Source: [Collinsella] massiliensis
GTDB lineage: Bacteria; Actinomycetota; Coriobacteriia; Coriobacteriales; Coriobacteriaceae
Length of the DNA: 35,186 nucleotides
Reading direction: 5' to 3'
Assembly (NCBI GenBank): GCA_000333815.1
Contig: CAPI01000123.1
Coordinates: 1-35,186 of the forward strand
The position numbers were made by a program, and so were the translations under genes. Under the pieces are notes generated by a model. That model saw only the letters and a list, made by a program, of their open reading frames with translations, did not search any database and was not told where the DNA came from. This document shows, piece by piece, positions 8,703 to 9,638 of this stretch (positions within the stretch are counted from its first letter, which is position 1; the number at the start of each line of letters is the position of its first letter).

Positions 8703-9638
8703 ATGGATATTCGGACGGTTCGGCCCGCGACGATGCGCATGCGCACGGCGGCGATCGCCGTCACGGCGCTGCTGATCGCGCTGTTCGCACTGCCGCAGAC
8801 GGCGTTCGGCATGCAGATCTTTGCCCAAGTGCCCAACAGCAAGCACATCACGCTCGAGGTCGAGCCGACCGACCGTACCGAGGATGTGCGGGAGAAGGTC
8901 TCCGAGAAGGAAGACTATGCGAGCGACGCGTTCTACCTGGTATTTGCAGGTAAGGTGCTGAAGGACGGCTTCACGCTGCAGGATTACAGCATCCAGAAGG
9001 ATTCGACCCTGCACATCGTGCTCAAGCCGACGCTCGAGCTCCGGGTTGCCGCCGACGCCGACCTGTCCGACGGTCTCGATGCCGGGGAGCTCGTGCTCAC
9101 GGCCGACACGGCTTCGGGAGGCGCCGAGGCGCTGACGGACCAGGCGACCTACTCGTTCAGGCCGGACGGGGCGGCGGACGGCTCGTGGGAGCCGGGGTTC
9201 CCTGCGGCGCCCGGTTCCTATGAGGTGCGGGCGCTGGTGCCGGTCGCGCTCGCGGCATCCGACGAGGTGATCGAGCACCTTGAGGTGCGCACGCAGGTCA
9301 CGATCCCGGATCCCGCAGAGGAACCGGGGACGGGCGGCGACTCTGGTTCGACCGCGCCTGGGATCGGCTCAGAGGGGAGCGGTGACTCCGGTTCCGTGGA
9401 CGCGGGTGCGGGCTCCGGGACGCCTGGCAGCGGCGCGGAAGGTTCCCCCGAAGCACCCGAGTCTGGGAACGGACAGGCCGGGGCTGAGCAGAACGACGCG
9501 GATGCCGGCAGTACGGGCGCGCTGGCTGCGCAGCTGCCTGCCACGGGCGACAATATGCCGACCGTCCTCATCGTGCTCGTCGCCGTCGCCGCCGTGGCGA
9601 TCGTAGCGGGCATCGTGCTGCGCTCCCGCAAGCGCTAA
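8703..9638 (+). CDS. Secreted, LPATG-anchored protein with a ubiquitin-like domain
   Basis: 311 residues. The ATG at 8703 follows an AGGGGGAGC ribosome site. Residues 1-36 are a signal peptide with basic start, hydrophobic core and AFG before the cut. Residues 37-108 begin MQIF and align without gaps to ubiquitin 1-72, with 40 identities by eye, including ITLEVEP, FAGK, DG-TL-DY and STLH. Lysines equivalent to K11, K29, K33, K48 and K63 are kept; K6 is Gln and K27 is Arg. The diglycine end is replaced by Lys-Pro-Thr-Leu. Residues 109-200 look like a small beta domain, 205-275 a Gly/Ser/Pro/Glu stalk, and LPATG (278-282), a membrane span and RSRKR form the sortase signal. Probably displayed on the cell wall. 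Function is unknown; host mimicry is an inference. A TATCAT -10-like box lies at 8655-8660. Confidence 0.92.
   Translation: MDIRTVRPATMRMRTAAIAVTALLIALFALPQTAFGMQIFAQVPNSKHITLEVEPTDRTEDVREKVSEKEDYASDAFYLVFAGKVLKDGFTLQDYSIQKDSTLHIVLKPTLELRVAADADLSDGLDAGELVLTADTASGGAEALTDQATYSFRPDGAADGSWEPGFPAAPGSYEVRALVPVALAASDEVIEHLEVRTQVTIPDPAEEPGTGGDSGSTAPGIGSEGSGDSGSVDAGAGSGTPGSGAEGSPEAPESGNGQAGAEQNDADAGSTGALAAQLPATGDNMPTVLIVLVAVAAVAIVAGIVLRSRKR

Follow-up and report, generated by a model that had tools for sequence, protein, structure and literature searches.

To our knowledge, ubiquitin is as a rule confined to the interior of complex cells, ranks with the most highly conserved proteins of eukaryotes and, BfUbb apart, had been considered absent from bacteria. 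BfUbb, encoded by ubb of Bacteroides fragilis, is a secreted protein with a signal peptide that is cut exactly before Met1 and is without the terminal Gly-Gly; its presence is patchy and a eukaryotic or viral origin has been inferred, the closest DNA match being in an entomopoxvirus (PMC3352274; PMC5705921). It inhibits some B. fragilis strains, and a secreted bacterial ubiquitin can thus act on bacteria (PMC5705921). A secreted ubiquitin effector of the nematode Globodera rostochiensis acts on another organism, according to the account of it cited in PMC5705921.

The locus analysed here lies in a 35,186 nt stretch of [Collinsella] massiliensis DNA (contig CAPI01000123.1; hereafter the window). 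Its features are as follows, all on the + strand.

66..8126, +, gene for a giant LPGTG surface protein with SpaA/Cna_B repeats, which may be cut short by the contig start (Pfam)
8132..8548, +, gene for a small HTH protein, conserved in relatives
8549..9720 (boundaries approximate), +, segment with the single ubiquitin gene, missing from two same-genus relatives
8575..8622, +, terminator-like hairpin and T-run between the HTH and ubiquitin genes
8690..8697, +, Shine-Dalgarno-like AGGGGGAG, 5 nt 5' of the ATG at 8703 (from sequence)
8703-9638, +, intact ORF of 311 amino acids (ORF translation)
8703..8810, +, signal peptide, residues 1-36, predicted cleavage AFG/M
8811..9026, +, ubiquitin domain, residues 37-108, with the trichomonad-type residue at 7/8 diagnostic sites
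9027..9305, +, beta-rich domain, residues 109-201, without a Pfam family (AlphaFold2 strands 110-201)
9306..9533, +, low-complexity Gly/Ser/Asp/Pro stalk, residues 202-277, predicted to be disordered (AlphaFold2, sequence)
9534..9548, +, LPATG sortase motif, residues 278-282 (sequence; TIGR01167 above cut-off)
9564..9635, +, hydrophobic membrane segment and basic tail RSRKR (sequence, AlphaFold2, TIGR01167)
9733..10209, +, ispF (YgbB family), downstream flank

The original prediction had counted 40 identities by eye in an ungapped alignment of residues 37-108 with human ubiquitin 1-72, and this number proved exact (55.6%). The domain matched Pfam PF00240 with 57.6 bits (E 1.1e-15; cut-off 25.4), this search giving one match in the window genome and none in 14 control genomes, and ubiquitin from the PDB matched the 8703-9638 product with about 66 bits per domain; by these two scores and the controls, chance similarity was excluded. 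The structure prediction that had been proposed as a check gave a pLDDT of about 92-97 for the ubiquitin part (AlphaFold2), and Foldseek matched the expected beta-grasp fold to ubiquitin crystal structures at 0.6-0.8 A rmsd with a TM score of about 0.95. Bacteria do have beta-grasp proteins of the YukD, EsaB, ThiS and MoaD type, and one of these, non-eukaryotic in origin, might have converged on ubiquitin. The only Pfam families to match with E <1e-5 were ubiquitin and Rad60-SLD, which upholds the claim that the domain is closer to ubiquitin than to YukD- or ThiS-type proteins; the YukD/EsaB, ThiS and MoaD families were absent from the Pfam matches of the product, and ungapped identity reaches 65% (47/72 residues) with trichomonad ubiquitin in addition to the figure for the human protein. 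The matched families and these identities led us to reject convergence, to which we attach a vanishingly small probability. These results support the view that 8811-9026 encodes a genuine ubiquitin domain, that this domain came from a eukaryote and that it is part of a protein anchored by sortase.

The proposed anatomy of signal peptide, stalk and LPATG sorting signal around the domain was also confirmed. The protein scored 20.3 bits with the LPXTG model TIGR01167 (cut-off 15.9) and 18.2 bits with Pfam Gram_pos_anchor, slightly below the cut-off of 20; the window genome has one sortase (PF04203, 97.4 bits), and a signal peptide, LPXTG motif, membrane segment and basic tail are all present. By all its signals the 8703-9638 product is predicted to be secreted and wall-anchored. 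Cleavage at AFG/M would make ubiquitin Met1 the first residue of the mature protein; among 60 sequences from the family and its comparison set, 59 have A or G before Met1, and the remaining one is a giant-virus-type sequence. AlphaFold2 placed the ubiquitin part, the beta-rich domain (110-201), the disordered stalk and a terminal helix in that order. The beta-rich domain had a pLDDT of about 83-89 over residues 141-200 in the model of the whole protein, and residues 107-207 modelled separately had a pLDDT of 51; it is probably an Ig-like stalk module.

As a copy of ubiquitin the domain is divergent, with the substitutions L8P, R42Y, I44V and R72 to K, and K72 is followed by a proline and then the stalk. 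The free C-terminal Gly-Gly, the R72 and the intact I44 patch of a conjugable modifier are all missing, and the domain is, as judged from its residues, non-conjugable. It had been suggested that the protein could act on host ubiquitin enzymes; for those of conjugation this is unlikely, given the loss of Gly-Gly and the replacement of L8 by P, of R42 by Y and of R72 by K.

Two same-genus relatives, G004 (ispF 96% identical) and G002 (90%), keep the order of surface protein, HTH and ispF genes without the ubiquitin gene. In the window, thiamine genes also lie downstream with ispF. The window has about 1.1-1.2 kb of extra DNA by comparison, representing either a gain in the window or a loss in both relatives; the empty site lacks the ubiquitin gene only. 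No convincing repeats were seen at the insertion edges. The ubiquitin part has a G+C content of 56% versus 64% for the window, and a GC3 of 0.83 versus 0.91-0.94 in neighbouring genes, a mild foreign signature. Within the window's family the domain was found in 1/67 genomes, namely the window genome. The hairpin and T-run at 8575-8622 suggest a separate transcript for the ubiquitin gene; a promoter scan gave no sigma-70-like site.

Elsewhere in the window, at 26243-33300, a tRNA-Thr adjoins a block in which a VirD4/TraG coupling protein is encoded at 30239-31654 together with a Clp-like protease ORF, probably what is left of an integrated conjugative element. Repeats of 36-50 nt (GGGTTGGTTGGGGACGTGTTC) occur in direct and inverted copies at 20915-20950, 26393-26442 and 26470-26519, and at 20952-24162 a 31-nt near-palindrome, TGTAAAATAACCCC-GGGGT-TTTTACAT, is present in four copies around the DUF1016/YhcG nuclease gene. 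An open frame of 2,246 codons at 759-7499 on the - strand, antisense to the giant surface protein, is likely to be a by-product of high G+C third positions.

The window protein is not a lone oddity but belongs to a patchy, multi-phylum family of secreted ubiquitins. One scan of named genome contigs, seeded with HITLEVEP (covering H12-P19), turned up 35 loci with identities of 50-69%; the groups represented include Bacillota, Alphaproteobacteria and Atopobiaceae, the Atopobiaceae protein (L032) coming from a genome in the window's order, Coriobacteriales, but in another family. Pfam-based scans, which are independent of the window sequence, found the domain in 12/398 genomes of the window's class, 6/153 of an alphaproteobacterial order, 14/385 of a Bacilli order, 9/392 of the order of Frisingicoccus and 6/295 of the order of Massilimicrobiota; a total of 47/1,623 genomes (about 3%), a few of these matches being partial or below the Pfam cut-off. 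Carriage by a phage or plasmid was rejected, phages giving no match and plasmids two matches of other types. In nearly all intact members the signal peptide stands directly before ubiquitin Met1, and past residue 71-72 each member continues into an unrelated module. The anchors include LPXTG-like motifs (LPATG, VPNTG, NPKTS and similar), S-layer homology (SLH) domains, IPTL-CTERM and, in Alphaproteobacteria, autotransporter barrels. The Gly-Gly tail is absent from almost all members; the exception, L049 (4811-5134 of an IMG/VR contig), has a signal peptide and a complete ubiquitin ending in LRLRGG, with the conjugation tail kept.

Many relatives come from metagenome bins, as would be the case if protist or host ubiquitin DNA had been assembled or binned with bacterial sequence. 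Against this, the window gene has bacterial codon use, a signal peptide and LPATG, its locus is syntenic with those of two relatives, and family members are also present in isolates (Massilimicrobiota An134, Frisingicoccus caecimuris DSM 28559 and a plasmid of Ruminococcus albus 7, the last annotated by NCBI as 'ubiquitin family protein'). Contamination was ruled out by the synteny, the empty site and the isolate relatives, and such an artefact is in our estimate very improbable.

Several members depart from the common plan. L034 (3-584) and L036, from a Candidatus Nomurabacteria bin, have two tandem ubiquitin-like domains and a membrane segment at the C-terminus. Bacilli have a third lineage (L083-L086, L089 and L090; NITLEVESSDTIEAVKAKIQEKEGI..GRTLADY), which is secreted and NPXTX-anchored, often beside a List-Bact repeat sequence. 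L105-L107 (G1012, order of Frisingicoccus) carry several diverged ubiquitin-like domains, partly in tandem, and are possibly another expansion.

Capture from a eukaryote, as originally predicted, is borne out by the trichomonad-type residues and by the consensus of the bacterial domains. Human and Trichomonas vaginalis ubiquitin were compared at eight diagnostic positions (12, 20, 22, 25, 54, 57, 60 and 64), at which the window domain has 7/8 trichomonad and 0/8 human residues, position 12 lying within the HITLEVEP seed. Bacterial domains fall into two types at these sites, one with 5-8 trichomonad residues and at most one human residue, and the other human/plant-like, which points to separate captures; L054, L055 and L056, from viral-collection contigs, have human/plant-type ubiquitin with a signal peptide and an IPTL-CTERM sorting domain and look like a separate capture in proteobacteria. 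The trichomonad-type consensus scored 155.8 bits against chain m of PDB 5xy3, the T. vaginalis ribosome (PMC8860606), and human ubiquitin 138.5 bits. In simulations an identical 76-residue sequence with the L40 tail scored 155.7-155.8 and any single substitution gave at most 155.3; from this exact score we infer that T. vaginalis ubiquitin equals the bacterial trichomonad-type consensus, from which L004 differs at 1/72 residues. Among ubiquitins of solved structures none was closer to the consensus than 5xy3 chain m, the one parabasalid ubiquitin in the comparison.

A tree of the 72 columns was poorly resolved, with support of 58/98 for the trichomonad-type group, and an AU test on these columns did not reject a window domain outside that group (p 0.32); the diagnostic residues were used for the donor because 72 columns are too few. 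In the same tree the window domain groups with a clostridial protein (support 98/91), which suggests bacterium-to-bacterium transfer after capture. On its residues, the donor was apparently a trichomonad-like (parabasalid) protist. Clostridia living inside termite-gut parabasalids, which have genes closest to parabasalid ones and in which about half of the eukaryotic-like genes have signal peptides (PMC10579323), are a direct precedent for gene capture from parabasalids.

The dN/dS of the ubiquitin part was mostly 0.03-0.14 in the better-diverged pairs, lower than the 0.13-0.70 of the remaining sequence of each protein. Three pairs had saturated synonymous sites in the ubiquitin part with a dN of just 0.07-0.12, and the close pair L043-L044 had a higher dN/dS of 0.41. 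The low values indicate that the domain has long had a function in bacteria. Ubiquitin has a known second functional surface, its F4 face. Across 33 trichomonad-type domains, retention was 0.94 for the core, 0.99 for the F4 patch (Q2, F4, H12 and D64), 0.65 for the I44 patch (R42 0.24, I44 0.58, V70 0.48) and 0.18 for R72; the F4-face value is weakened by H12-P19 lying within the search seed and by the relatedness of the sequences, although Q2 and F4 are invariant and lie outside the seed that found most loci.

The explanation that we favour, and to which as a whole we give about an even chance, is a trichomonad-derived, wall-displayed ubiquitin that acts by surface mimicry as an F4-face ligand or decoy. 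A parabasalid-type ubiquitin would have been captured, its C-terminal Gly-Gly tail cut off and a display stalk and sorting signal put in its place, leaving ubiquitin with a native Met1 N-terminus as the exposed tip of a wall-anchored protein. Such a tip could serve as a non-conjugable, non-cleavable ligand or decoy for a ubiquitin-recogniser met in the gut, whether of a protist, of the animal host or in debris or shed material. Binding would be mainly by the F4 face (Q2, F4, H12 and D64) rather than by the I44 patch, to which most eukaryotic receptors bind, and may help the bacterium to attach to protists or host cells, or to survive next to or within them. The most likely function, to judge from the sequence, would be that of a ligand or decoy at the surface for a partner that binds ubiquitin.

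The main rival is bacterial antagonism, since BfUbb inhibits other B. fragilis strains and shares both the Met1 cleavage and the loss of Gly-Gly (PMC5705921; PMC3352274). The displayed or shed domain would enter or bind related bacteria and inhibit an essential protein, the anchor making this contact-dependent; the patchy, single-copy distribution in about 3% of genomes would fit. The present proteins, however, are for the most part held by long stalks or barrels, the locus showed neither an immunity gene nor a toxin-like neighbour, and the empty site differs by the ubiquitin gene only; we consider this reading rather unlikely. Ranked third, and a little less probable again, is a generic adhesin tip in which ubiquitin was taken up as a very stable beta-grasp fold that binds an unrelated ligand, for instance a glycan or mucin, with no mimicry of ubiquitin. 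The giant SpaA/Cna_B adhesin adjoining the gene, the adhesin-type repeats in C-terminal parts of the family (some carbohydrate-binding-like, PF03442) and the eroded I44 patch would all be consistent with this, but a mere scaffold is not expected to keep up to 71/72 residues of a protist ubiquitin, nor to show an omega well below that of the rest of the protein.

For the family at large, the presence of relatives in several percent of the gut-type bacteria suggests that surface mimicry may be widespread. It is possible, at somewhat less than an even chance, that members of three or more phyla of gut bacteria display trichomonad-like ubiquitins (and, in parallel, those of other eukaryotes) on several unrelated anchors as a non-conjugable F4-face mimic, a case of convergent inter-kingdom mimicry with gut protists or hosts. 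Surface ubiquitins of which one line is apparently traceable to gut trichomonads would point to genes having passed from gut protists into bacteria, and to selection that keeps ubiquitin outside any ubiquitination system. Whether the reader of extracellular ubiquitin in the gut is a protist, a host receptor, an antibody or a rival bacterium can now be tested; there is also relevance to ubiquitin-cross-reacting antibodies, an issue already raised for BfUbb.

By comparison with known systems, the window protein resembles BfUbb, as published, in its predicted Met1 cleavage and loss of Gly-Gly. As the original prediction held, the sortase-anchored form is a different arrangement: BfUbb is a soluble protein of 76 amino acids in Bacteroides, whereas the window protein has 311 amino acids, a stalk, LPATG and trichomonad-type residues, and stalked trichomonad-type forms occur in Actinomycetota, Bacillota and Alphaproteobacteria. 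The ubiquitin domain of T. vaginalis (5XY3 chain m, where it is joined to ribosomal protein L40) appears to agree with the bacterial subfamily consensus at every residue, but is cytosolic and conjugable via Gly76, whereas the bacterial form is secreted and without Gly-Gly. The G. rostochiensis effector, so far as the citing account describes it, likewise has a signal peptide before ubiquitin, but is eukaryotic and soluble with a short C-terminal peptide, whereas the window protein is bacterial and anchored. With LPXTG sortase-anchored proteins the window protein shares the signal peptide, stalk, LPATG, hydrophobic segment, basic tail and a sortase in the genome. In the open-licence literature we found no description of a surface-anchored bacterial ubiquitin, of the spread across phyla or of a trichomonad origin. 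A secreted bacterial ubiquitin (BfUbb) and single database-annotated members were already known; the anchored forms, their spread and their apparent trichomonad origin appear to be new.
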